A stretch of DNA of 64,000 nt, from positions 1-64,000 of the forward strand of contig NZ_AUPZ01000005.1 in NCBI RefSeq assembly GCF_000445475.1, written 5' to 3'. Source of the DNA: Sulfurimonas hongkongensis. Its GTDB lineage: Bacteria > Campylobacterota > Campylobacteria > Campylobacterales > Sulfurimonadaceae. Of the stretch, positions 5,051 through 20,240 are shown in pieces. The notes beneath the pieces were generated by a model. That model was not told the DNA's origin, did no database searches, and saw only the letters and a list, made by a program, of their open reading frames with translations. Positions within the stretch are counted from its first letter, which is position 1; each line of letters begins with the position of its first letter. The position numbers were made by a program, and so were the translations under genes.

Positions 5051-6442
5051 TTATATTGAATTGTTTCTAGCTTTTGCATTTGCTCTGTCTGTAGAAAAAA
5101 AAGCTATAAAATTTGCAAGAGTCCCAACTACTAACCCATCGATTCCAAGCGGAGAATCTAAGAGATTACTCCATAAAAGTGTGGTGATGATGCCAGCTGA
5201 TGCACCTGATATAAAGCGTTTTTTACTAAGTTTTAAACCAAGCAAGGCGGCTGCAAGTGGGACTAAGGTAGTAGGTGCCCAAAAGTTATATGAGTAGATA
5301 AGGATATCTAAAATACTATCAATAGAGAGTGCAAAAATCACAGCTATAGTGCCAACAGCTAGAGTAGTCATACGAGCAAGTTTAAGCTCCGCATCTTGGT
5401 TAAGTGGAGTCTTTAGTATGGGCTTTATGATGTCGTTATTAAAAGCGATGGCAGCTGCGTTTAAAAATGAATCCGCAGAGGACATGATGATGGAGATGAT
5501 AGCTGAGATAACTACAGCTTGAAGTACTGGAGAGAGTGCTTCTTGGATAACATAAGGCATGGCAAGGTTTGCATCTAGTGATGGGTTTAGTGCTAATGCT
5601 ACAAGCCCGATTAACCCAGTGGTTGCAAAAAATGGGATGGAAAATAGTCCACTAAGCATTGTTCCTCTTCTTACATTACGATTTCTTTTACCAATAAGAA
5701 GCCTTTGAACATAGGGAGGAACTAGAGTCTCACCTAGTAAAAAGGTAAGAAAAAGAGAGATAAGGGCAATTAGTGCCATAGGTTCAAGTGAGATAGTAAA
5801 GTGGCTCTCTGGGACACGCTCAACAACTTCACTCCAGCCACCTAGATGCTCTATGCCAAAGTAAAGTGTAAGAGGAATACCAACAGATAAAACTATAAAC
5901 TGAACAATATCAGTCCAAACAACCGCTCTCATTCCTCCTATGGTTGAGTAGATGATAACGATGCTAATACCTAAGATGATGCCAGTTGAACGGTCAAGCC
6001 CTAGAAAAAGATTAAAAATATATCCCATAGCACCAATCTGAGCACCGAGAATTCCAGCACTTAAAATCACACCAAAAACACCTGCAAAGATTCTAGACTC
6101 TTTCCCATAAGCTGGCTCCATTATATCGCCTATAGATATGGCATCTGGATAGTGTCTTATGTTTGGAGCGATGTACTTTGCTACTAAGATCTCTTTTAGG
6201 CTAAATCCCCAAAGTGCTACAATATTTGAGATGCCAACTAAAAAAACCTTCTCAGCATTTCCCATAGAGAAGCCTCCTCCAATAAAAGAGGCACTAAGGG
6301 TTGCAAAGATAGCCATAGTTCCAAAGGACTTTGAAGCTACAGCGTAGTCTTTGATATCTTTGATACCACGACCTGCCCAGATTCCGATAAGTAGTACTAC
6401 GATGAGGTATGAAAATATTATAATGCTTTGGGTAGTAAACAT
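5051..6442 (-). CDS. Sodium:solute symporter (SSS family)
   Basis: A 463-aa inner-membrane transporter with about 12-13 hydrophobic segments, using a cation gradient to import an organic solute. Seen: the SSS signature region STIGGMRAVVWTDIVQF near residues 165-181, the sodium-site region SASFIGGGFSMGNAEKV near 50-66, and ISIIMSSADSFLNAAA near 317-332. The substrate (proline, acetate or similar) cannot be told from sequence. A GGAG lies about 9 nt before the ATG. The DUF234 gene lies 12 bases downstream, so both may be co-transcribed. Confidence 0.88.
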   Translation of the reverse strand: MFTTQSIIIFSYLIVVLLIGIWAGRGIKDIKDYAVASKSFGTMAIFATLSASFIGGGFSMGNAEKVFLVGISNIVALWGFSLKEILVAKYIAPNIRHYPDAISIGDIMEPAYGKESRIFAGVFGVILSAGILGAQIGAMGYIFNLFLGLDRSTGIILGISIVIIYSTIGGMRAVVWTDIVQFIVLSVGIPLTLYFGIEHLGGWSEVVERVPESHFTISLEPMALIALISLFLTFLLGETLVPPYVQRLLIGKRNRNVRRGTMLSGLFSIPFFATTGLIGLVALALNPSLDANLAMPYVIQEALSPVLQAVVISAIISIIMSSADSFLNAAAIAFNNDIIKPILKTPLNQDAELKLARMTTLAVGTIAVIFALSIDSILDILIYSYNFWAPTTLVPLAAALLGLKLSKKRFISGASAGIITTLLWSNLLDSPLGIDGLVVGTLANFIAFFSTDRANAKARNNSI

Positions 6443-6557: not shown

Positions 6558-7784
6558 TTAGAACTTATAAACTAGAGTACTACTAACTTGAGTCAAGTCA
6601 GTAGCAGCCCAACCAATGTCTTTTTCATCTTCATTTATTACTGTGAGAATAGCACTTAGATTTAGGTTTTTAGTGATGTCATAGCCTGCCCATAAACAAA
6701 ATTCGCTCATTTTATAATCGCCTGAACCATTAGGTAGTTTATAAGTACTATGACCATAAATAGCACTAAGGCTAAGCCCCATTATATTTTTAGAGAGAGT
6801 TATATATGGAGTACGAGTATCTATTGCTATATAGTTGTAGAGTTTATCTCCCTCTTCAAAAGGCGTGACATTTTCGCCACCCTTATAAGCAGAACCCCAA
6901 CCACCATCTTTTCCTGTTTGGATATATCCAAGTCCAAGATTGTAGCCATCAAGCTCAACATAGACTTTTGTATCTATAAGCGAGCCATCTTCGTTTTGTG
7001 CAAGTCTTTCATCTGTTTGCATATAGTGAAAAAATCCACCATATTTAAAATCATTTGACTCAAGAGCGAGGGTAGCTTTCGCGCCATAAACAGAGTAGTT
7101 ATCAGGAGCTACTAGAGTGTAGCCTTTGACTTTTAGTGAATCTAAAATATCGTAAGTTAAACCAACTTTATAGATTCCACCTCCTTCAGAGTTTATAGTT
7201 CCACTAAAACCATCCATATCAGGTCCATAAAACAACTCTCTTGCCCACATTCTATAGTGACTTTGTGACCAGATAAGCTCAACTTCAAGCTTTTCTATTG
7301 GGTTTGCATAGAGAGTTATTGCATCGTGGTGCTCATCTAGCCACTCAGTCTCAAGCTCTTGACGACCAGCTTTAAAGTGGATTTTTTCTGTGTCATAACC
7401 GATGTAAGCATTTGTTGTAACTGCAATCTCTCCACCATCAATATTCCAAAATCTTGAACTTGCATCACCTTTTCCTGCCGTAGGTCCATAAGCACCTATA
7501 GAGTTTTTATGATCTTCCCAGATAACTTTATAAGCTCTCATACCAAAGGCAAGATTGAAATTATGAAAAGAGTCAGTTTTATAGATAAGTTCCGCTGAAC
7601 CAACTGAGTAAGCGCTATCTCTATAGTAAACGTCTAAGTCTTTCTTAGAATCCCTCATCTCATAAGTTATAGTAGCATCACCACTTAACTTTCCGTTTTT
7701 AATCGCTTCATCAAACTCTGCTGCGCCAACTGAACTAGCCGCCATAAACATACATGCCACTAAACTTAAACTTTTTTTTCTCAT
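6558..7784 (-). CDS. Outer-membrane porin of the epsilonproteobacterial Opr/OprD-like type
   Basis: A 408-aa protein with a Sec signal peptide (MRKKSLSLVACMFMAASSVG, cleavage likely after GAA near residue 22). The mature part is made of alternating amphipathic beta strands and ends in aromatic F (TLVYKF), typical of beta-barrel assembly. Family members are general or substrate-biased porins. It lies downstream of torA on the same strand but is separated by a strong hairpin, so it is probably independently transcribed. An AAGGTAG site precedes the ATG. The exact family is inferred from overall character. Confidence 0.78.
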   Translation of the reverse strand: MRKKSLSLVACMFMAASSVGAAEFDEAIKNGKLSGDATITYEMRDSKKDLDVYYRDSAYSVGSAELIYKTDSFHNFNLAFGMRAYKVIWEDHKNSIGAYGPTAGKGDASSRFWNIDGGEIAVTTNAYIGYDTEKIHFKAGRQELETEWLDEHHDAITLYANPIEKLEVELIWSQSHYRMWARELFYGPDMDGFSGTINSEGGGIYKVGLTYDILDSLKVKGYTLVAPDNYSVYGAKATLALESNDFKYGGFFHYMQTDERLAQNEDGSLIDTKVYVELDGYNLGLGYIQTGKDGGWGSAYKGGENVTPFEEGDKLYNYIAIDTRTPYITLSKNIMGLSLSAIYGHSTYKLPNGSGDYKMSEFCLWAGYDITKNLNLSAILTVINEDEKDIGWAATDLTQVSSTLVYKF

Positions 7785-7858: not shown

Positions 7859-10339
7859 TTAAGGTTGTTTAAACATAGAGAGTTCAGGAGCTGCTTTAGT
7901 ATATTTTTCAATATTAACTAGAGCTGTATTTGAACTATTTCCATTTGCTAACTTAGATGTTGGGATATCTTTTGTTAGAACATTAACATTACCATTTAAG
8001 CAAAGTGAGCCTATCTTTCCTCTCTCCATTGGGTCATACCAAGCACCCTCATCAATTTTCACGACACTCTCTCTAACTTCATCAGATACAATAGCACCAA
8101 CTAAGATTTGTCCTCTATCGTTAAAGACTCTCACAATATCGCCACTTTTGATGCCCTTAGCTTTTGCATCTTTTGTATTGATCCAAACCGGTTCTCTGTT
8201 TGCTACTGCGTACTTTTCTCTTAAACTAGTATTGTTTAGTTGGGAGTGTAGTCTATGAGTTGAGTGTGGAGTAATAAGTGCAAACTCCGCAGTTTTTTTC
8301 TTCATACCCAACCACTCAGCTGGTTCTAACCAACTAGGATGCGCCTTACAATCATCATAGTTCATATCTTCAATTGTTTTAGAGTAGATCTCAATTCTTC
8401 CAGATGGAGTACCAAGTGGATCTAAGATAGGATCTTCTATATAGTCTGCATATCTTACGAATTGTGTATTTTCATAAGGAGTCCCAAAAGTTATAGGCTC
8501 ATTTTTACTCCAAAATTCTCTAAATTTTGGTATTTTCATATCCATTTTTACAGCTTGATCATAAGCCTTAGTATAGAACTCTTCTATCCACTCCATCTCA
8601 GTTTTGTTTTGTGTGTACTCTTTATGTACTCCAAACTCTTTTGCTAAATCACTAAAGATTTGATAATCATCTTTAGACTCAAACTGCTTTTTAACTGCTT
8701 GCTTCATTGGAACGATATTTAGGTTTGAGTAGTCTCCAGTTCCCGTAATATCATTTCTCTCATAACTCGTAGTTGTAGGCATTACAATATCTGCCATTCT
8801 AGCTGTTGGAGTCCAAAATGCTTCATTGACAACAACTGTTCTAGGTTTTCTCCAAGCTTTAATTAGAGTATTTGTATCTTGATGGTGAACCAATGGATTT
8901 CCACCAGCCCAGTAGATAAAATCAATCTCTGGATATGTTATCTCTTTGCCATTAAACTGGATTTTTTTACCAGGATTTAAAAGAGCATCTGCAACTCTTG
9001 CAACAGGGAAAGAAAATTTAGCTGCATTTTGTAGCCACTCTGCACCTTCTGCGTTCTCATTTGCTGTAACATTTGCAGTTATCCCACCAACTATAGCACT
9101 CTTAGCAGTTGGAACACCGCCGTTTGAGTAGTGATAAGAGAGTCCGAAACCACCACCTGGTTTACCGATTTGTCCAAGCATTGAAGCTAGAGTTATTAGC
9201 ATCCAGTGAGTTTGCTCTCCGTGATGAGCTCTTTGCATACCCCATCCAGACATAAACATAGTTGTGTTTTCAAAAAACAGCACTGCTAACTCTTTGATTG
9301 TTTTTTCATCAATTCCACATATTTTTGAAGCCCAAGCTGCACTCTTTACAACTTTGTCTTTTTTTCCATAGATATAATCTTTAAACTCATCAAAGCCTTC
9401 AGTGTACTCTTCTAAAAACTCTTTATCATATTTCTTAGCTTCAATTAGAGAGTGAGCCATACCTATCATTAGAGCGACATCAGTATTTGGAACAGGAGCT
9501 ACCCACTGTGCATTTAAGTATTCGCAAGTCTCCGTCTTAAAAGGGTCGATGCAGATGATTTTTTTACCTGAATTTTTTAATTCTTCAAGATATTTAAGCC
9601 CATAATCATCAGATGCAGTCCATGCAATTTTTAGAGTAGCCGCAGGATTTGCTCCCCAGATAACTACAGCTTTTGAGTGCTCTAACACAATTGGCCAAGA
9701 TGTTTGTTGTTCGTAAACTTCAAGAGTTCCTAAAACGTGAGGCATTATTACTTGTGAAGCACCTGTTGAGTAGTCTCCAACTGTTCCTGTAAAACCACCA
9801 GTTGCAGTCATAAATCTATGAAGTAGGATTCTACAGTTGTGCATATTTCCACTACTCTTCCAGCCATAACTACCAGCAAAAACACTCTCAGCGCCTTTGT
9901 CTTTTCTAGTCTTTTTAAGCTGCGATGCTATTAGTTTTATAGCATCATTATAAGAGACTCTAACCCACTCATCGCTACCTCTTAGTTCTGGCTTTGGATT
10001 GTTTGGATCTTTTAAGTAGGACTTTCTAACCATTGGGTATTTAACTCTATCTTTTGCATAGACTAAGTCTTGTGTATGGTGTTGAAGAGAGTTTTCAAGC
10101 CCTGATACTTTTTGATAAGGTTCAGATTTTGTTAGTACGCCATCTTTAATTGTTAACTTTAACATTCCCCAGTGAGCAGCAGTTAAGACCTCTCCATTTT
10201 GAACTAGTTTTGTGGAAAACTTTACAATTGTTCCAGCTAGCAGATGCCCTCTACTTGTGAGAACATCTATGAATGGAACAGCTGCAAAGAGTGCAGCAAA
10301 CTTTAGTACATTTCTTCTTTTTAAGTTTGTATTTTGCAT
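7859..10339 (-). CDS. torA: Periplasmic molybdopterin N-oxide/S-oxide reductase (TorA/DmsA type)
   Basis: An 826-aa molybdenum bis-MGD enzyme that would reduce trimethylamine N-oxide or dimethyl sulfoxide as terminal acceptor in the periplasm. Seen: a Tat signal with twin arginine (KRRNVLKFAALF, residues 7-18); no N-terminal Fe-S cysteine motif, as expected for TorA/DMSO reductase; the molybdenum ligand Ser191 in GDYSTGA; and Tyr158-Gly-Trp160, the active-site pair of DMSO reductases. SGWGMQRAHHGEQ and AGGNPLVHHQD match the family. It follows its cytochrome gene by one base, with its AGGAG site inside that gene. The tyrosine suggests S-oxide as well as N-oxide use. Confidence 0.9.
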   Translation of the reverse strand: MQNTNLKRRNVLKFAALFAAVPFIDVLTSRGHLLAGTIVKFSTKLVQNGEVLTAAHWGMLKLTIKDGVLTKSEPYQKVSGLENSLQHHTQDLVYAKDRVKYPMVRKSYLKDPNNPKPELRGSDEWVRVSYNDAIKLIASQLKKTRKDKGAESVFAGSYGWKSSGNMHNCRILLHRFMTATGGFTGTVGDYSTGASQVIMPHVLGTLEVYEQQTSWPIVLEHSKAVVIWGANPAATLKIAWTASDDYGLKYLEELKNSGKKIICIDPFKTETCEYLNAQWVAPVPNTDVALMIGMAHSLIEAKKYDKEFLEEYTEGFDEFKDYIYGKKDKVVKSAAWASKICGIDEKTIKELAVLFFENTTMFMSGWGMQRAHHGEQTHWMLITLASMLGQIGKPGGGFGLSYHYSNGGVPTAKSAIVGGITANVTANENAEGAEWLQNAAKFSFPVARVADALLNPGKKIQFNGKEITYPEIDFIYWAGGNPLVHHQDTNTLIKAWRKPRTVVVNEAFWTPTARMADIVMPTTTSYERNDITGTGDYSNLNIVPMKQAVKKQFESKDDYQIFSDLAKEFGVHKEYTQNKTEMEWIEEFYTKAYDQAVKMDMKIPKFREFWSKNEPITFGTPYENTQFVRYADYIEDPILDPLGTPSGRIEIYSKTIEDMNYDDCKAHPSWLEPAEWLGMKKKTAEFALITPHSTHRLHSQLNNTSLREKYAVANREPVWINTKDAKAKGIKSGDIVRVFNDRGQILVGAIVSDEVRESVVKIDEGAWYDPMERGKIGSLCLNGNVNVLTKDIPTSKLANGNSSNTALVNIEKYTKAAPELSMFKQP

Positions 10340-10340
10340 G

Positions 10341-10928
10341 TTATTTTTCTCCTATGTCTTTTGAGTGTTTTTGTAGAAACTGTGTTACAAGATATACATC
10401 TTCTTTTGTCATTGCCGTTCTATTTGACATCGACTTTATCATGCTTGGCCATTGGTTTGATGTATATTCATTGTTTGGATGTGCTGGGTGACAGATGGAG
10501 CAGTTATCTTTATATATAGCCTCTGCATTTTTATATAAAGAGCTTAAATCTTCTGTCAGATTGTCATTTACTGTATAAGCAGTAAGGGCTACTTTGCTCC
10601 ATTTTACGCCATCTTTGTCTTTACTAGTGGAGATAGTTTTGATATCAAACTTTGCCTTTTTACTAAGACCAGCAATTAAAATCCTTTTACCTGTTGTAAA
10701 ATAGACTGCACTTGAGACGCCTTCTCTCATAAAGCCCTCAATCTCAACTTTTACCTTGCCATCTTTTTTCTCTAAGATTTTTACTTCTGAAGTAGGAAGC
10801 AATCTCCCCTCACTTCTTTTACCATCTGGCGATGTATATAGATTCTTAACAGAACTTGAGTACAAAGACTCATTTGCAAACAGGGATCCACTTAAAAAAA
10901 TGAACCCGATCATTAAACTTTTTATCAT
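10341..10928 (-). CDS. Mono-haem cytochrome c with SH3-like domain, electron donor to TorA
   Basis: A 195-aa protein with a Sec signal peptide (first 18 residues), an SH3-like beta region near residues 25-125, and one haem site CSICH near residue 157. It would pass electrons from the quinol side to the periplasmic reductase. The arrangement matches Campylobacter jejuni Cj0265c beside Cj0264c, where one small cytochrome replaces the pentahaem TorC. GAGGAAG precedes the ATG. It is first in the operon; a TATTAT -10-like box lies near 10961 on the minus strand, downstream of a large inverted repeat. Confidence 0.85.
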   Translation of the reverse strand: MIKSLMIGFIFLSGSLFANESLYSSSVKNLYTSPDGKRSEGRLLPTSEVKILEKKDGKVKVEIEGFMREGVSSAVYFTTGKRILIAGLSKKAKFDIKTISTSKDKDGVKWSKVALTAYTVNDNLTEDLSSLYKNAEAIYKDNCSICHPAHPNNEYTSNQWPSMIKSMSNRTAMTKEDVYLVTQFLQKHSKDIGEK

Positions 10929-10976
10929 TTTACTTCCTCATAAGATTTTTAACTCTTTAAATGATAATAGATTAAA

Positions 10977-11025
10977 GTAGCAAAATAGTCGAATAAATTG
11001 TTGTTGTGTTCGACTATTTTGCTAC
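10977..11025. promoter_or_regulatory. Perfect 17-bp inverted repeat between torA operon and its putative regulator
   Basis: The arms at 10977-10993 (GTAGCAAAATAGTCGAA) and 11009-11025 are exact reverse complements separated by 15 bases. Centre-to-centre spacing is 32 bp, about three helical turns, so two regulator dimers could bind one DNA face. It lies between the divergent cytochrome/torA and response-regulator genes, near where the torA-side -35 would be. An operator role is inferred; a terminator is unlikely because both flanking genes point away from it. Confidence 0.55.
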
Positions 11026-11116
11026 ATTTTGTCAATACAATTTTTAAAATCGTAGATTAGGAATTTTTACTTGCTATTTTGGATGTAGGGTTTTAAAGTT
11101 AAAATGAGCATTAGAG

Positions 11117-11122
11117 TATAAT
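11117..11122 (+). promoter_or_regulatory. TATAAT -10 box of the response-regulator operon
   Basis: A perfect TATAAT ends one base into the first possible ATG (11121). A transcript from it would start near 11129, after that ATG, which supports the downstream GTG at 11142 as the real start. Confidence 0.5.
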
Positions 11123-11141
11123 GAGCAAGAAGGAATTGGTA

Positions 11142-11828
11142 GTGAAAAAAGAGCTTTTACATAAATTACAAAATCTAACTATTCTTTATGCAGAAGATGA
11201 AGAGGGTATACGAAAAAATATAGCTGATTCTCTTAGATATTATGTTAAAGAAGTTTATGAGGCAGGTGATGGCGAGGAGGCTTATCTTTTGTATGAGCAA
11301 AAAAAGCCCAATATTATATTTAGTGATATCCATATGCCAAAGATGGATGGTATCGAGTTTGTTAAAAAGGTGAGGGAAAAAGATTTAGAAACTGCTGTTG
11401 TTATGATAACTGCACACACAGATAAAGAGTATCTCTTAGATGCAGTTGAGCTTCACATGGAGAAATACTTTGTAAAGCCTATAAACTTTGAACAACTCTT
11501 AGGTGGGCTTGAGCGGTGTGTTCTTCAACTAGAACAAAACAAACTTGTTGTTTTGGATGTTGATAACTCCTATGTTTATGACTTTGATAACAAAAAATTG
11601 AACTACAAAGAGAAGTGGGTTACTCTTAACAAAAAAGAGATGCTTTTTTTTGAGGCACTTATCAAAAATCAAAACCGCATCACTTACTACGGCGAACTAC
11701 AAGAGAGTGTTTGGGTTGATGATGTAATGACTGATAGTGCTTTGCGTTCACTTGTTCGCAATCTTAGAAAAAAACTGCCAACAGATATCATCTACAATCT
11801 ATCAGGAGTAGGATATAAATTTATTTAA
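11142..11828 (+). CDS. OmpR-family response regulator, probable torA regulator
   Basis: A cytoplasmic two-component regulator of 228 aa. An N-terminal receiver domain (residues 7-118) has the acidic pair in YAEDEEG, phospho-acceptor Asp62 in FSDIHMP, Thr in MITAH and Lys in FVKPI. A C-terminal winged-helix DNA-binding domain ends in GVGYKFI. The start at GTG 11142 is chosen for an AAGGA seven bases upstream; ATG 11121 has no such site and overlaps a -10 box. It diverges from torA and overlaps the next gene, whose AGGAG lies within its last codons. Control of torA is inferred from position. Confidence 0.85.
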   Translation: MKKELLHKLQNLTILYAEDEEGIRKNIADSLRYYVKEVYEAGDGEEAYLLYEQKKPNIIFSDIHMPKMDGIEFVKKVREKDLETAVVMITAHTDKEYLLDAVELHMEKYFVKPINFEQLLGGLERCVLQLEQNKLVVLDVDNSYVYDFDNKKLNYKEKWVTLNKKEMLFFEALIKNQNRITYYGELQESVWVDDVMTDSALRSLVRNLRKKLPTDIIYNLSGVGYKFI

Positions 11829-13479
11829 ATACTTACTTATTTTACTTCTTTTTATTAATATAACTGATGCAAATGAGCTTCTAGTAAAAAAAACTCACTT
11901 TAGAGATGACGATGCAGCCTCTCGCGCTGCAACTCCTCTGCATCCAGACTCTCACATAAAGATATTTATCCCAAATGTTCCATATATTTACATTACCAAA
12001 GCCACAAATGCTGGACTTATTCGCTCTTATGATAATGAGAGAGGTTGGAAGTACGAACTAGCAAAAAGTCATAAAAGAGTGGACGATTTTACTTATGAGT
12101 TTGAGTTACGAAAGGGACTAAAGTTTCAAGATGGAAGCGAGTTTGATACTGCTGATGTGCTTTTGAACTTTGAGTACTTCAAGCGCTCTCCTTTTCTTTA
12201 TACAAACATAGATAACGTAGACTTTGAGGTTATAAAGATTGATAAGTACAAGTTCAAAATAGTGCTAAAAGAGAAGTATGAGATGTTTTTTACAGACCTC
12301 GCTAATATCTACTTTCATACAAGAGAGTATCTTAAAAAGTATGGCTTTAAGGGCAGTGAGACTGAATCAACAACACATGCACCAGGTGCTTATGGGATGG
12401 GGCCATACATACTCAAAGAGGGTTATGCTCTAGGCTCAAAACATACACCAATCATAGAGTTAGAGGCAAATCCATACTACTACAATAAAGAGTACCCAAA
12501 GATAAGAAGAGTAACAGCTTACACACAACTAAGTGCCACAAAAGCACTAGAGATGATAACTCAAAAAGAGGGAGAGCTTGACTTTGCCCCTATTGCCTTT
12601 AACAAAAAGATAGAAGTTCTAACATCAAAGTATGCAAAGTTAAATATTAGCAAATCCACAAACAATTTTATAATCTTTTTTAATCTTATAAATGCGAATG
12701 AGAGACTAAAATCAAAAGAAGTAAGAGTAGCACTAAACCAAGCACTAAACCAAGAAAACTTACTAAACTTTGTATATAAAAACGAGGGCTATATCGCACC
12801 ATTTGCAAGTTCTGTAAACTATGAGATAGTGAAAAAAGTCTTAAAAGATGCAAAACCAAAAGAACAAGAGAGTTATACAAAAGAGAAGATGCACAAACTA
12901 CTAAAGGGTCTGCATCTAAAGGTCTTTACGCAAGATAGTTTTATGTTTTTGTTTAAGGGCATAGAGTATCAGTTAAAGAAGTATGGAGTAACACTTAGTT
13001 ACACCATAACAAGTAGTGAAAAAGATATATATGAACAGTTGCTCACCACTCATAAATCGCAAAATACTCAAAAGTGGGACTTGCTTATCTGGGGAGATGA
13101 TGACTGGTACTATGGTAATCCATGGAGTGTTCTTTTCATCTATGAAGATGAGAGCGCATGGTCAACCATAGGAAAAGACAGACTTATGAAGAGCTATATA
13201 GATGAGTTTTTTGTAACAAAGGTTGATTCAAAAGAGTATGAAGAGATAGTTTCAAAAATACTATATAGAGCAAAAGAGATGGCGTACACGCTAAGGGTTC
13301 CATCACCGAACAAAGTTACAGCACTAAATAAAGAGATCATCTATAAGCCATACAAAGGAGCAGTTATCCCCATTTGGGAGATGCAAATTACAAAAGACCA
13401 CTACTCCATAAGAAAAACAAGAGAGTATCCTAAATACTTAGAACAACCCATAAAGCCAAAAAGAGGAAATTGTGAATAA
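11815..13479 (+). CDS. Periplasmic solute-binding protein (SBP_bac_5 type), probable sensor subunit; apparent AUA start
   Basis: A 554-aa extracytoplasmic binding protein of the peptide/nickel/opine ABC family. No ATG, GTG or TTG start precedes the conserved N-terminus: the frame opens at 11812, and the only well-placed initiator is ATA at 11815, six bases after AGGAG at 11804. It is followed by a signal peptide (NLFKYLLILLLFINITDA). Family features: NAGLIRSY near residue 65, then FTYEFELRKGLKFQDG near 92-107, and VRVALNQALNQENLL near 305. A GTG at 12079 would remove the signal peptide and is rejected. No permease or ATPase genes adjoin. It lies between a regulator and a kinase and overlaps both, which suggests ligand sensing rather than transport. 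Confidence 0.75.
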   Translation: MNLFKYLLILLLFINITDANELLVKKTHFRDDDAASRAATPLHPDSHIKIFIPNVPYIYITKATNAGLIRSYDNERGWKYELAKSHKRVDDFTYEFELRKGLKFQDGSEFDTADVLLNFEYFKRSPFLYTNIDNVDFEVIKIDKYKFKIVLKEKYEMFFTDLANIYFHTREYLKKYGFKGSETESTTHAPGAYGMGPYILKEGYALGSKHTPIIELEANPYYYNKEYPKIRRVTAYTQLSATKALEMITQKEGELDFAPIAFNKKIEVLTSKYAKLNISKSTNNFIIFFNLINANERLKSKEVRVALNQALNQENLLNFVYKNEGYIAPFASSVNYEIVKKVLKDAKPKEQESYTKEKMHKLLKGLHLKVFTQDSFMFLFKGIEYQLKKYGVTLSYTITSSEKDIYEQLLTTHKSQNTQKWDLLIWGDDDWYYGNPWSVLFIYEDESAWSTIGKDRLMKSYIDEFFVTKVDSKEYEEIVSKILYRAKEMAYTLRVPSPNKVTALNKEIIYKPYKGAVIPIWEMQITKDHYSIRKTREYPKYLEQPIKPKRGNCE

Positions 13480-15118
13480 AATAAGTATAAAATTTAAACT
13501 CAGAATCCTCTTTATCTTACTACTTCTAGCTATCTCAACTATAGGATATAAGTCTATATCTATAAGTCAAGATAACAAAGACAGACTTGAAGTGGTTCAT
13601 AGCAAATCACAAACGCTTCTAGGCTTGCAAGATAAAATCATCACTCCACTCTATAATCTAAGAGAGCTAAGCCAAGCCTTAGTTATGGCACCAAACCAAA
13701 AGATAAGAGAGTCTATACTAGACAATTTGACTACAGCGATAAATGAACTTGATGATGCATTTTTAGAGTATTCAAAAGAGAATAAAATAGTTTACGAGAT
13801 GTGGCTTCACTACAAGTCTCTTATAAAGGTGACAAAAGGCTATTTAAACTCAGAGTTTGAGGAAGGCGCTTATGTAAATATTACAACTGTTGGTAGAGCA
13901 CAATTTCAACTCTTAGTTAAAGAGCTTTTGGTTATCCAAAGTGACTTGTTAAGTAAATCATCCATAGCTTATAGCGAAGCGGTAAAAGATGTTGCAAATA
14001 TAAAAATAGAAATATTTGTTTCTCTATTTGTGATCTTGCTTTTTTCTATCATCATAGGTTCTTTAATATCAAATAATATCATCTCCTCTATATATAGAGT
14101 TCAAAATGGCTTAAGAGAGTTTTTTGAGTATATAAACCATAAGAGGGAAAAAGCAAACAGGATTGAACTTGTCTCAAATGACGAGTTTAGCGATATGGCA
14201 AACATGATAAATGAAAATGTTGAGACTATACAAAACAACATAGAAAAAGATGAGGCACTTATAAAAAATGCTACAAGAGTGCTACTAAGCATCAAAAGTG
14301 GGAACCTCGGAGACAGGCTTGATGGTCATACTCATAACATGGCTCTTGGTGAACTAAAAGAGATGATAAACGATATGATAGAAAACCTAGAAGAAAAAAT
14401 CCAGCAAGAGATAAATAAAAGACTTGAAAACGAACAGATATTACTACAACAGTCAAAGCTTGCATCTATGGGTGAGATGATAGGAAACATAGCACATCAG
14501 TGGAGACAACCACTCGCTCAAATCATAGCGATTTTTATGAATATGAAGGTTACTTATGACTTTGATAAGTTTACACCAATCTATCTAAACCAAAAGATAG
14601 AAGAGGCAGATAAACTAACACAATACATGTCACAAACCATAGATGACTTTCAGAACTTTTTCAATCCACATAGTGTAAAAGAGGTGTTTTGTGTTGAGAG
14701 AGCTTGTAGAGATGCGCTTTTTATAGTTGAGTCTTCACTTAAACACAACCATATAAAAGTAGAGTTTGAAGTCTTAGATGAGTTAAAGATTTTAGGACAT
14801 AAAAATGAGTACTCTCAGGTTGTACTAAATATCATAAACAATGCAAAAAATATCCTCTTAGAAAAAAAGATAAAAGAGCCACTTATAAAGATAGAGATAA
14901 AAGAGGGAGATAACTTTGCAATAGTGAAGATTTGGGATAATGGTGGAGGGATACCAGACGAGTTTTTAGATAAAGTGTTTGAGCCTTACTTCACAACTAG
15001 ACACAAAACTCAAGGAACTGGCATCGGTCTCTATATGTCAAAAAATATCATAGAGAAAAATATGCAAGGCTATTTGAATGTCAAGAATATTGGTGATGGA
15101 GCTTGCTTTACTATATAA
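13472..15118 (+). CDS. Membrane sensor histidine kinase, partner of the binding protein and regulator
   Basis: A 548-aa kinase: transmembrane segment 1 near residues 8-26, a helical periplasmic region to about 175, segment 2 near 178-198, a HAMP-like/coiled linker, a HisKA domain with phospho-acceptor His342 in IAHQWRQPLAQI, and an HATPase domain with N-box NIINNAKN, DNGGG and GTGIGLYMSK. It ends directly after the last beta strand (ACFTI). GTG start with AGAGGAA, overlapping the binding-protein stop by 8 bases. The periplasmic loop probably reads the bound state of that protein and phosphorylates the regulator at 11142. Confidence 0.88.
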   Translation: MNKISIKFKLRILFILLLLAISTIGYKSISISQDNKDRLEVVHSKSQTLLGLQDKIITPLYNLRELSQALVMAPNQKIRESILDNLTTAINELDDAFLEYSKENKIVYEMWLHYKSLIKVTKGYLNSEFEEGAYVNITTVGRAQFQLLVKELLVIQSDLLSKSSIAYSEAVKDVANIKIEIFVSLFVILLFSIIIGSLISNNIISSIYRVQNGLREFFEYINHKREKANRIELVSNDEFSDMANMINENVETIQNNIEKDEALIKNATRVLLSIKSGNLGDRLDGHTHNMALGELKEMINDMIENLEEKIQQEINKRLENEQILLQQSKLASMGEMIGNIAHQWRQPLAQIIAIFMNMKVTYDFDKFTPIYLNQKIEEADKLTQYMSQTIDDFQNFFNPHSVKEVFCVERACRDALFIVESSLKHNHIKVEFEVLDELKILGHKNEYSQVVLNIINNAKNILLEKKIKEPLIKIEIKEGDNFAIVKIWDNGGGIPDEFLDKVFEPYFTTRHKTQGTGIGLYMSKNIIEKNMQGYLNVKNIGDGACFTI

Positions 15119-15130
15119 GGTACAAAAACA

Positions 15131-16399
15131 CTAAAGTTCACTTGCCCATTTGATGGCATCTAGTCCATACTTTTCTCTAAGTTTATGTGTCTGCTCGCTT
15201 AGTGTTTTCATCTTTTGATCATCTTCAAAACCTATGAGGGAGAGCTCTTTTTTAGAGTCTCTTGTAAAGCTTGAGCAGTTGATGCTAAGCCTGATGGCGT
15301 GGAGTCTCTTGTGGATGTCTGCCTCATTAAAGAGGCTCAAGCAAAGAGAGTCAAACTTTTTTTCTGTAAATATCTCAGCTAGTGAGATGTTTTTATGTGA
15401 ACTTTGTCGCATCTCATAAGAGATGCTAAGATGAAAAACAGTTGGGATGACATCAAGTTTTAAGATAGCGTAACTTAGATGTCTGGCTAAGATATGCACT
15501 CTTCGTCTTAACTCACCTCTATCAAAGATGGGGTCAAATGTTCTTGAGATGCCGATGGACTTTCTTTTGTGAGTTGTCTTAATGTTCTCATCTGAGAGAC
15601 CGCAAACTCTTTTATAAAGCTCTTTTGCGTAAGGCCCCCACGACTCAATAGTGCCACGTCTCTGCTGTAACTCTCCTAAAGTACGAATCTGAACAGAGCT
15701 TAGCTTCTCCTGCATACTTTTACCAATGCCAGCAAACTCTTTAACAGGGATATCTTTTATAAAAGAGTCAACACCGTTTGCATAGATAGTTTTGCATCCA
15801 AAAGGTTTTGCGCTTGAAGTGGCTAGCTTTGCGATGAAGCGAGTGTTTGCCGCTCCGATGGATACTGGGAGTTTTAGCTCTCTTTTTATCTCATGTCTAA
15901 GGTTATCAATAAACTGCTCAACTTCATCATCTTCCACCCAACCAGACAAATCACCATAAAACTCATCGATGCTGGCTTGCTCAATGAGAGGGATTTTTGA
16001 CTGTAAAAACTCATGAAGCTTATGCGAGAGCTTTTGATATAGAGACATGTTTGGTGCTTTTATGATGAGATGTGGACAGAGCATCAAAGCCTCTCTTATG
16101 GTCATAGCAGTTTTAATCCCAAAAGAGCGAGCTTCATAAGATGAGGTAGTTAAAATCCCACGAACTCTTCCATCTGTATCTACAAAAGCATCTATATCAT
16201 CACTCTTCTCATAAGTTTTATAAAAAGTGCTAACAAAAGAGCCAGAGTTCTCAAGGTTAACACTCTGCTTCTTTGCTTCTTTTGTAAAAATCTGAGCATC
16301 ACTTCTCCCACCAATAGCCACAGGTTTCCCCTCCAATGATGGCTCACTAATGCGAACGGCACTTACAAAAAAGCAGTCTATATCTATGTGTATTTTCAT
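15131..16399 (-). CDS. Y-family DNA polymerase (DinB/UmuC-like)
   Basis: A 422-aa translesion polymerase. Seen: HIDIDCFFVS at the start with catalytic Asp5 and Asp7, the steric-gate region, SYEARSFGIKTAM, and the second metal site SIDEFYGDLSG near residue 145, then helix-hairpin-helix (FAGIGKSMQEKL) and the little-finger domain. The segment between AIGG (residue 31) and RGILTTSSYEAR (about 79) is some 40 residues longer than in Escherichia coli DinB, an insertion in the finger region. Transcribed alone; the stop is 13 bases from the kinase stop (convergent). Pol IV versus Pol V type cannot be settled. Confidence 0.88.
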   Translation of the reverse strand: MKIHIDIDCFFVSAVRISEPSLEGKPVAIGGRSDAQIFTKEAKKQSVNLENSGSFVSTFYKTYEKSDDIDAFVDTDGRVRGILTTSSYEARSFGIKTAMTIREALMLCPHLIIKAPNMSLYQKLSHKLHEFLQSKIPLIEQASIDEFYGDLSGWVEDDEVEQFIDNLRHEIKRELKLPVSIGAANTRFIAKLATSSAKPFGCKTIYANGVDSFIKDIPVKEFAGIGKSMQEKLSSVQIRTLGELQQRRGTIESWGPYAKELYKRVCGLSDENIKTTHKRKSIGISRTFDPIFDRGELRRRVHILARHLSYAILKLDVIPTVFHLSISYEMRQSSHKNISLAEIFTEKKFDSLCLSLFNEADIHKRLHAIRLSINCSSFTRDSKKELSLIGFEDDQKMKTLSEQTHKLREKYGLDAIKWASEL

Positions 16400-18133: not shown

Positions 18134-19579
18134 ATGAGAAAAAAATCAGATATTTTAAAAAATATGCCAAAATCCATCATTGTTGAGACTAATGGTAAGG
18201 TAGTTGTTGGTGTCTATGGTGGCAAAAAGAGTTTAAAGAAATTAAAGCATAAAAAACTAAAAGACATATTTGATGCTAAAGCTTATAAGAGGCTGAAAAA
18301 GCTTAGGAAAAAAAAGTCTAAGAGTAGCGTCATTAGTTGGGATGGGCAGGAGTATGGGGCTTACTATAAGTCTGATGTTTTTTATTTTTATGATATTACG
18401 GCTTACTTTGAAGTTGAGTCAAAACTAAAGCAGAGTTTGAGTGAGCTTACTTCTAAAAAAGAGGAACTTCAAGCGGTCTTTGACCTTGCGGCAAATGGCA
18501 TCTCTATTTTAGATAGAGATGGAATGTTTTTGTATGCAAACAAGTTTTTTCAAAATATGATGGAGTATACGATGGAAGAGCTTTATAGTGAATCTTGCAT
18601 CTCTCTCTCATCTGCTGAATATGCGGCTCCATCAAAGACTGCGGTTGAAAAAGCCATAGAGTTTGGAAGTTTTGAGAAGTTTAAAAAGGTTTGTGTCACA
18701 AAGTCTGGAGTCCATTTAAATGCTAGTATGTCCTTGGCTTACCTAGAGAGTAGGGATGAGATTATCATGATAACCTCAGACATTACAGAAGATATAATGT
18801 ATCAAGACAAACTAAAAAAACAAGTTGAGATAGAAGTCGCAAAAAGATCACAACAGCATGAGATAATGTGCCATCAGTCAAGACTCGCTGCTATGGGTGA
18901 GATGATAGACTCTATAGCTCATCAATGGAGACAACCCTTAAATAGTCTAGGCATCATAGTACAAGGGCTTAGACACATATCAAGCCAAAAAAACATAGAT
19001 GCTAGGTTTTTAAAAGAGATAGAAGCAGAGATGATGCAAAAGCTAAACTACATGTCTCAAACCATCGATGACTTTAGTATGTTTTTTAGAATATCTAAAC
19101 AAAAAGAGAGTTTTAATGTTCTAAAAAGCATAGAAGATGCCATAAGACTTATAGATATACAACTAAAAAACTACAATATTACGATAAAAATAACAAAAGA
19201 TGAGAGCTTAGACTTGAGTGTTTTAGGCTTTGCAAATAAGTTTAGGCAAGTAATACTAAACATGATTCATAACTCAATGATGGCTATAGTCTCAAAAAGT
19301 GTGAAAAATGCAAAGATAGAGATAATCATTAAACGAGTCAAAAACAATCTTCATATAGAGATAGTTGACAATGGTGGAGGCATTTCAAGGGAGGATATGC
19401 CAAAGATATTTAACCCATACTTTACAACAAAAGACAAAGGAAGTGGGATAGGGCTCTATATGTCAAAAGTAATTATTGAGAGCCATATGAACGGGCTTTT
19501 AGCGGTTAAAAATATCAAAGATGGTGTGAAGTTTACTATCATGTTAAAAAAAGGTTATGAAGATGCAAGCCATTCATAA
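18134..19579 (+). CDS. Soluble PAS-domain sensor histidine kinase
   Basis: A 481-aa kinase with no transmembrane segment, so it senses a cytoplasmic signal. A very lysine-rich N-terminus (residues 30-65) is followed by a PAS domain near 112-230 (FDLAANGISILDRDG, then FFQNMMEYTMEEL), a coiled linker, a HisKA domain with phospho-acceptor His263 in IAHQWRQPLNSL, and an ATPase domain with NMIHNSMMAI, DNGGG and GSGIGLYMSK. It overlaps the regulator gene by 23 bases, which indicates translational coupling. Its proximity to the sulfide:quinone reductase gene hints at control by sulfur or redox state; this is inference. Confidence 0.88.
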   Translation: MRKKSDILKNMPKSIIVETNGKVVVGVYGGKKSLKKLKHKKLKDIFDAKAYKRLKKLRKKKSKSSVISWDGQEYGAYYKSDVFYFYDITAYFEVESKLKQSLSELTSKKEELQAVFDLAANGISILDRDGMFLYANKFFQNMMEYTMEELYSESCISLSSAEYAAPSKTAVEKAIEFGSFEKFKKVCVTKSGVHLNASMSLAYLESRDEIIMITSDITEDIMYQDKLKKQVEIEVAKRSQQHEIMCHQSRLAAMGEMIDSIAHQWRQPLNSLGIIVQGLRHISSQKNIDARFLKEIEAEMMQKLNYMSQTIDDFSMFFRISKQKESFNVLKSIEDAIRLIDIQLKNYNITIKITKDESLDLSVLGFANKFRQVILNMIHNSMMAIVSKSVKNAKIEIIIKRVKNNLHIEIVDNGGGISREDMPKIFNPYFTTKDKGSGIGLYMSKVIIESHMNGLLAVKNIKDGVKFTIMLKKGYEDASHS

Positions 19580-20240
19580 AAGACTGCAAGCACTTACACT
19601 TTTAATCGCAGAAGATGATGAGAGCACCCTAAAGTGGCTTAGTCGCGTTTTGTCCATCTACTTCAAAGAGGTCAGAGTTGCAAAAGATGCTATGCAAGCC
19701 TTAGAACTTTTTAAAGAGAGTCCATCAGACGTTATCATCTCAGATATAGAGATGCCACAAGTTGATGGCTTGCATCTACTACAAAAGATATCACAACTCT
19801 CACCAAACACCATAAGAGTGGTTATGACAGCTTATAATACGCCAGAGTATATAAACATAGCAGTAGAGTCTAATGTTGATTTTTATCTTAAAAAGCCCAT
19901 AGATATAGATGAGTTTCTAGTCGCAATATCTTCAAGTGTATCTAAAGGTAGCATACTAAGTGAGGAGATTTTTTTAAATGAAGATTACTCTTATAGCTAT
20001 AAACAAAAGTTAGTAAAAAAAGGGCAAGAGAGTATAAAGCTCACAAAAAAAGAGGTACTTCTTCTTGAGTTGTTGTTAAAAAATAGAAAATCTATAGTGA
20101 GTATAGAGCAGATTGAACATAGTGTTTGGCAAGAGAGTGTTAGTGCAGATGCCATTAGGATGGTAGTAGCTGGTATTAGGAAAAAACTCTATCAAGGTGT
20201 TATAGAAAATGTAAAAGGGCTTGGATACAGGATAGAGTAA
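19557..20240 (+). CDS. OmpR-family response regulator paired with the PAS kinase
   Basis: A 227-aa regulator with receiver domain: IAEDDEST, Asp63 in ISDIEMPQ, VVMTAYN and FYLKKPI. A C-terminal winged-helix domain follows and ends GLGYRIE. It resembles the regulator at 11142 in length and layout. Start at 19557 inside the kinase gene, just after AAAGG. Downstream, 86 bases carry a hairpin and then the SQR gene, a possible target. Confidence 0.87.
   Translation: MKMQAIHKRLQALTLLIAEDDESTLKWLSRVLSIYFKEVRVAKDAMQALELFKESPSDVIISDIEMPQVDGLHLLQKISQLSPNTIRVVMTAYNTPEYINIAVESNVDFYLKKPIDIDEFLVAISSSVSKGSILSEEIFLNEDYSYSYKQKLVKKGQESIKLTKKEVLLLELLLKNRKSIVSIEQIEHSVWQESVSADAIRMVVAGIRKKLYQGVIENVKGLGYRIE

Follow-up and report, generated by a model that had tools for sequence, protein, structure and literature searches.

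A candidate family of three-component respiratory sensors built on an SBP_bac_5-type binding protein, seen beside an S/N-oxide reductase of Sulfurimonas hongkongensis and in its relatives

In the TorT-TorS-TorR system of Escherichia coli, a periplasmic binding protein, a membrane histidine kinase (HK) and an OmpR-family response regulator (RR) control a TorA-family reductase and its c-type cytochrome in response to trimethylamine N-oxide, TorS being a hybrid phosphorelay kinase with a helical periplasmic domain. In the same organism, DppA acting through Tap, and likewise nickel taxis, rely on SBP_bac_5 proteins that dock on helical-bundle chemoreceptors. In Vibrio cholerae, CBP also forms part of the chitobiose uptake operon, and ChiS is a DNA-binding hybrid kinase; in this system an SBP_bac_5-family protein controls a membrane HK, albeit in an unrelated process, the response to chitin (PMC10208484 for the control of the kinase). 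In AioX-AioS-AioR, ArxXSR and ArrXSR, a solute-binding protein (SBP), an HK and an RR are encoded beside the molybdoenzyme that they control, and the SBP serves signalling only, its ligands being arsenic oxyanions (PMC5908839). In the present work, we analyse a 64,000-nucleotide stretch of Sulfurimonas hongkongensis (positions 1 to 64,000 of contig NZ_AUPZ01000005.1, hereafter the window), in which genes for an RR, an SBP_bac_5-type SBP and an HK (the trio) lie opposite those for a reductase of the TorA/DorA/BisC family and its cytochrome. We read the trio as belonging to an order-wide family of three-component respiratory sensors, in which an oxide-binding SBP would signal through the HK and the RR to boxes at the reductase promoter, and we put the probability of this reading at roughly 0.78. 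Binding-protein-dependent HKs beside molybdoenzymes (TorTSR, AioXSR) and SBP_bac_5 control of an HK (CBP-ChiS) are already known; what appears to be new is their combination.

The initial annotation of this DNA described overlapping genes for an RR, an SBP_bac_5 protein and a membrane HK, diverging from a TorA-type reductase and its cytochrome, and coordinates and Pfam matches confirm the description. The features, with the Opr porin leftmost, are as follows.

11121..11828, forward strand: OmpR-family RR (Pfam Response_reg and Trans_reg_C)
11821..13479, forward strand: SBP_bac_5 (cluster C) periplasmic SBP, with an N-terminal hydrophobic segment (PF00496)
13472..15118, forward strand: membrane HK (Pfam HATPase_c, weak TarH)
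7859..10339, reverse strand: periplasmic molybdenum S/N-oxide reductase of the TorA/DorA/BisC family, with the Tat-type N-terminus KRRNVLKF and the active-site motif AGSYGWKSSG
10341..10928, reverse strand: monohaem c-type cytochrome with CSICH at residue 143, resembling the C-terminal domain of TorC
11009..11028, forward strand: predicted regulator box TTCGACTATTTTGCTACATT facing the RR-SBP-HK operon, at 21.2 bits the region's top match, with 0 of 60 shuffles as high
10974..10993, reverse strand: predicted regulator box TTCGACTATTTTGCTACTTT facing the cytochrome-reductase operon, an inverted-repeat arm scoring 17.1 bits with a matrix from other genera
6558..7784, reverse strand: Opr-family porin downstream of the reductase (NF033923, 360 bits)

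The RR and SBP genes overlap by 8 nt, assuming that the SBP starts as in its relatives (codon 11821), and the SBP and HK genes also by 8 nt (13472-13479). The phospho-acceptor of the RR is Asp69 when numbered from the ATG, while the RRs of relatives align from the GTG at 11142; identity to the RRs of same-clade loci is 60-88%. In the HK, His342 within IAHQWRQP is the phospho-acceptor, and hydrophobic helices at about residues 10-30 and 176-200 flank a periplasmic sensor, which is all-helical between the two transmembrane helices in the secondary structure of the predicted model (mean predicted local distance difference test score, pLDDT, of 68). Unlike TorS, this HK lacks both a receiver and an Hpt domain, its only matches being to HATPase_c and, weakly, to TarH. 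Similarly, TorT belongs to a different binding-protein family than the PF00496-type SBP of the trio, and AioX is PhnD-type and AioR works with an RpoN promoter (PMC5908839), whereas the trio combines SBP_bac_5 with an OmpR-type RR. The proposal that the SBP replaces TorT holds in the sense that it occupies the role of TorT, as a functional analogy rather than as a claim of descent from a TorT system. TorT itself (TIGR02955) has no match in the organism's own genome at E<=0.001 and none over the cut-off in 298 genomes of the order.

A first line of evidence is the recurrence of this arrangement. A species-level scan of 84,980 genomes yielded 29 loci and an order-level profile search covered 299 genomes, with neighbourhoods inspected at 31 order loci and at the loci of the species-level scan; L036 and L040, contig ends with a partial SBP, lie outside the fully inspected loci. 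The SBP family is found in 28 of the 299 genomes, spread over 10 genera. At every fully inspected Campylobacterota locus the order is RR-SBP-HK, and a molybdenum reductase accompanies the trio at a distance of 1.2-2.9 kb from the SBP; its placement may be upstream, downstream, divergent or (as at L119) convergent. In other words, the survey that the initial annotation had proposed for this gene order beside torA-type genes reveals a recurrent module, each fully inspected copy with its molybdenum reductase. Four layouts can be told apart. In the first (a), a reductase termed TorA2 lies directly upstream with its cytochrome, being 60-87% identical to the TorA2 of the related locus L012 and about 40% to the window reductase (L108 has a 230-residue TorA2 fragment near a contig end, which was left unscored). 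In the second (b), RR-SBP-HK is followed by a cytochrome and a reductase 58-80% identical to that of the window. In the third (c), a chaperone (PF02613), an Fe4S4 molybdoreductase and an iron-sulfur (Fe-S) subunit are placed upstream or divergently, and in the fourth (d) another TorA-like enzyme (44-47%) lies upstream, two of these loci carrying two tandem SBPs per HK. The tandem SBPs of L122 and L135 fall in different SBP subclades, and possibly represent two ligands feeding one sensor. Next to the trio of L017 is the gene of a kinase to which NMT1 and SBP_bac_3 domains are fused (13334-15880).

The tree of 60 SBPs tracks the reductase type, needing 8 changes where shuffling gives 35 on average, and according to it the pairing with Fe-S reductases arose at least twice. 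Of 100 genomes of the genus, the 4 that encode a member of the SBP family are also the 4 with a TorA-type reductase (hypergeometric P of 2.6e-7, uncorrected for relatedness). At the level of the order, a BisC-family reductase is present in 27 of 28 genomes with the SBP, the exception being a truncated contig, compared with 87 of 298 genomes overall. No trio away from reductases was found among the order loci surveyed, and this, together with the order survey, supports the claimed link between a three-part SBP/HK/RR sensor and S/N-oxide reductases. A search of plasmids for the SBP gave no match. That trio and reductase are neighbours by chance is rejected by the locus survey and the SBP tree.

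A second line of evidence concerns the intergenic region, which holds two 20-bp arms, TTCGACTATTTTGCTAC, one per direction and 15 nt apart. With a matrix built from six Arcobacteraceae promoter boxes, TTCGATTTTTT-TTCGATTTTTT or TTCGATTWTTT-TGCTMYTTTTT, the predicted box is a phased element of 22 bp, an 11-bp tandem repeat, and OmpR-family regulators use such tandem repeats. The box stands upstream of most TorA2-type operons (29-32 bits, training loci included) and at six family-f20 operons for Fe-S reductases, none of them in the training set (27-28 bits), with 0 of 60 shuffles as high in both cases; the Arcobacter-type Fe-S loci have a weaker one (15.9-20.4 bits). It sits about 38-60 bp before the start and is absent upstream of operon-internal regulator genes. 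Several genomes have a second box directed at the Opr porin. The window copies score 21 and 17 bits and those of L012 26 and 22. In the 2.3-Mb genome, no site other than the two torA/RR intergenic boxes comes within one mismatch, and among 100 genomes of the genus exact sites (0 mismatches) occur only at trio loci, two here and one at L012. In genome G025, two 2-mismatch sites lie just upstream of the TorA2 operon, with the rest of the 2-mismatch sites resembling background. G025 also has a more distant TorA-like reductase, located away from the trio (L161) and lacking a box, which serves as a small negative control. The predicted boxes, present in much of the order but not in every clade, are candidate RR target sites at the reductase promoter.

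Could the SBP simply serve transport, delivering its ligand to an ABC (ATP-binding cassette) permease encoded elsewhere? The observation in the initial annotation that no permease lies nearby stands: of the six PF00528 permeases in the genome none is in the window, the nearest one on the contig being at 118177-118785. Permeases pairing with this SBP were sought in the genome and at the family loci, and none was found paired; in particular, blastp finds no OppB-like permease in the open reading frames of any family locus. The genome does have one lone OppB-like permease (C5:118177) together with another SBP_bac_5 protein (C7), which is what could be said for a transport role. However, C7-type SBPs have matches in about half of the genus genomes, as compared with 4 of 100 for the trio SBP, and C7 is therefore the more probable partner of the lone permease. 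What is more, the partners in other bacteria are methyl-accepting chemotaxis proteins (MCPs) or kinases. Gammaproteobacterial relatives of the SBP (Enterovibrio, Grimontia, Shewanella and others) adjoin large receptors: a dCache MCP at Grimontia L028, MCPs at L155-L157 (with a 4HB_MCP_1 sensor in L155 and L156, and by similarity only in L157) and two flanking hybrid kinases at L158, while the similarly sized neighbours at the other Enterovibrio, Grimontia and Shewanella loci were assigned from their length and N-terminal sequence. In this they resemble DppA-Tap and nickel taxis, the difference being that the SBPs of those systems are, as is generally known, shared with ABC transporters, while none was found for the trio SBP. 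Since these relatives stand beside chemoreceptors or kinases, a signalling role is supported, and we consider transport a highly improbable function.

The sensor reading is thus carried by the gene order, the families, the co-occurrence, the match between SBP clade and reductase, the boxes and the signalling-type neighbours elsewhere. Mechanistically, we envisage that the ligand of the SBP_bac_5 protein, which has no transport partner, would be the electron-accepting S- or N-oxide itself or a similar compound, and that the SBP would dock on the helical periplasmic domain of the HK; as this part is all-helical, it is reasonable to assume that such docking involves a helical bundle. The HK would then phosphorylate the OmpR-type RR, which may bind the two 11-bp direct repeats in tandem (TTCGAYTWTTT-TGCTAYTTTTT type) that immediately precede the reductase promoter, and would switch on, rather than repress, the reductase, the cytochrome and often the Opr porin. 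In S. hongkongensis, if the window copy is expressed, the boxes would serve the divergent DorA/MtsZ-type reductase as well as the operon of the trio itself.

The SBP matches PF00496 with 118.3 bits, where the curated cut-off is 32.4, and it is thus a member of SBP_bac_5. Its AlphaFold2 model (pLDDT 81.8, predicted template modelling score, pTM, 0.81) has a cluster C fold, with VIA Z scores of 27-32 to AppA, DppA, OppA, NikA and relatives over 438-461 residues, and of 32 to 7kz9. The W..PDP loop usual in SBP_bac_5 is replaced by a conserved WGNDDW(Y)..PW in nearly all clades (QNTxDWYGRHPW in clade d). This loop may form part of the ligand pocket, although the stretch is of low confidence in the model, with pLDDT below 50 at residues 427-431. 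In the PDB profile ranking, the second-best match is the chitin-oligosaccharide binding protein 1zty. This recalls the possibility that the SBP is a brake, in other words that the unliganded SBP holds the kinase off and the ligand releases it. There is a precedent within the same SBP family, as CBP represses ChiS in the absence of chitin and deletion of cbp activates ChiS (PMC10208484). That said, the sign of control is not something that sequence decides. TorT is required for induction. The same has been found for AioX (PMC5908839). On balance, we regard a braking SBP as unlikely.

What, then, might the ligand be? The reductase scores 1100.6 bits against bisC_fam (TIGR00509; cut-off 1017.55), which places it in the BisC/DorA/MtsZ group, and falls below the TorA cut-offs (887.3 against 909 for the equivalog NF011682 and 850 against 1465 for TIGR02164). 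Among PDB entries, 7l5i comes first with 1041 bits (presumably Haemophilus influenzae TorZ/MtsZ), followed by a Rhodobacter-type dimethyl sulfoxide (DMSO) reductase with 886 and by the trimethylamine N-oxide (TMAO) reductases 9h4t and 1tmo with 698 and 665. Methionine sulfoxide is the proposed natural substrate of H. influenzae TorZ/MtsZ, and a TMAO-specific TorA is recognised by the absence of the active-site Tyr (PMC5122715). The active-site Tyr/Trp of S/N-oxide reductases are both present here, aligned to the SYGW of DMSO reductase, and the cytochrome matches TorC (TIGR02162, 127 bits) at profile positions 207-384 only. Consequently, the enzyme is TorA-type in the sense of belonging to the TorA/BisC family, but it fails the TorA equivalog cut-off and carries the S-oxide-type Tyr. 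For this reason the label "TMAO sensor" is unproven, and, given the order of the PDB matches, candidate ligands include TMAO, DMSO and methionine sulfoxide as well as other oxides. It is conceivable, in particular, that the ligand is a sulfoxide rather than TMAO, such as methionine sulfoxide, alone or within a peptide: the closest structure is the supposedly MtsZ-like 7l5i, the SYGW tyrosine is in place, and most SBP_bac_5 members are predicted peptide binders (PMC9602780). Members of this family, however, also bind nickel complexes, sugars and other compounds, judging by structure titles; with DDWY..PW in place of the W..PDP loop, specificity is not transferable, and the reductases beside the trio are of differing types. 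We therefore hold a sulfoxide ligand to be a tentative possibility, with the odds somewhat against it.

The history of the trio is not that of its neighbour. The window SBP is sister to that of L012, its nearest relative, inside the TorA2 clade, and L012 has both reductases: the window-type enzyme and its cytochrome on the reverse strand, then, on the forward strand, TorA2, its own cytochrome (cyt2), RR, SBP and HK. TorA2 and cyt2 are missing at the window locus, and a search of the organism's own genome for TorA2 found none. Compared with L012, the synonymous divergence of the trio genes (0.69-0.95) exceeds that of the reductase (0.18), which indicates separate histories of the two halves and suggests a separate transfer or recombination of the reductase. 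Taken together, these points mean that the trio did not originate as the sensor of the adjacent reductase, and the assumption that this torA was its original partner is not borne out. The shared boxes nonetheless suggest that it now faces torA.

Several observations weigh against the sensor reading. The matrix finds no box upstream of TorA2 in L108 and L110 (a contig end or misannotated start is possible), the box of L118 is weak, and clades b and d, with a downstream TorA type and a second upstream TorA type, show weak variant repeats. A BisC-family reductase without the trio is found in 60 genomes of the order, so that the trio would be one of several control routes. The sensor fold of the HK was not matched to TorS, the Foldseek/VIA matches being to the catalytic domain and the confidence of the HK model middling. 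Finally, the window copy itself appears altered: the start codon of the SBP (11821-11823) is TTA, compared with TTG in 15 of the 15 Campylobacterota relatives compared, and the C-terminus of the HK is a few to about 20 residues shorter than in relatives.

In the relatives, the TTG start overlaps the end of the RR gene; here, the next in-frame ATG/GTG/TTG is at 12079, inside the protein, and two codons before the TTA there is an ATA, a weak near-cognate start preceded by AGGAG. A frameshifted pseudogene starting only at 12079 is rejected, the frame being open from the start used by relatives to 13479 with only the start codon altered. At the end of the HK gene (15100-15118) there is an apparent TA insertion, ACTATATAAGGT here against ACAATAAAGGT in L012, which terminates the HK early. 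Hence the idea of a fully working copy is unsupported. One might go further and see in this copy a failing relic of a family that is otherwise still a sensor, its SBP start and kinase end having been lost after the loss of TorA2 and its cytochrome, both of which L012 has kept. Yet the ratios of nonsynonymous to synonymous substitution (dN/dS) against L012 are low across all three genes (0.077 for the RR, 0.088 for the SBP and 0.082 for the HK), the SBP frame is open, both boxes are intact with 0 mismatches, the ATA is available, and the altered start may stem from an assembly error. Either the damage is recent, or the weak ATA/TTA start behind AGGAG is in use, or the assembly is in error, and a failing relic seems to us rather unlikely.

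As for the surroundings, the host, a marine-type bacterium, has a Sulfurimonas-type genome, its closest named relative being Sulfurimonas sp. STCSWMC_194 (SBP 89% identical). The Opr porin is a frequent neighbour at trio loci (L013, L014 from Malaciobacter halophilus, L017, L019, L022, L111, L112 and L115-L118), and downstream of it in the window lies a PutP-like sodium:solute symporter (5051-6442). A second HK/RR pair (18134-20240) resembles the HK and RR of the trio in sequence, but has a PAS domain and no binding protein.

We found no report of the trio in the open-access literature, although absence there is not proof. In the parts consulted of a 2019 review of respiratory control in Campylobacterota, substrate induction is described and no dedicated TMAO/DMSO-type sensor is named (PMC6682613). 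It is, in our estimation, about an even chance that a transport-free SBP_bac_5 lineage acts more broadly as a general receptor for S/N-oxide acceptors, re-paired with reductases (at least twice with the Fe-S type) and with gammaproteobacterial chemoreceptors while keeping a DWxxxPW-type loop. If true, respiratory acceptors would be sensed by a third kind of binding protein, unrelated to TorT and AioX, and a third binding-protein family would have been recruited convergently for molybdoenzyme control. The module may also yield parts for biosensors of oxidised sulfur and nitrogen compounds. Little is known about the way in which Campylobacterota perceive TMAO, DMSO and other N-oxides or sulfoxides, and the module and its predicted operator make this question testable.

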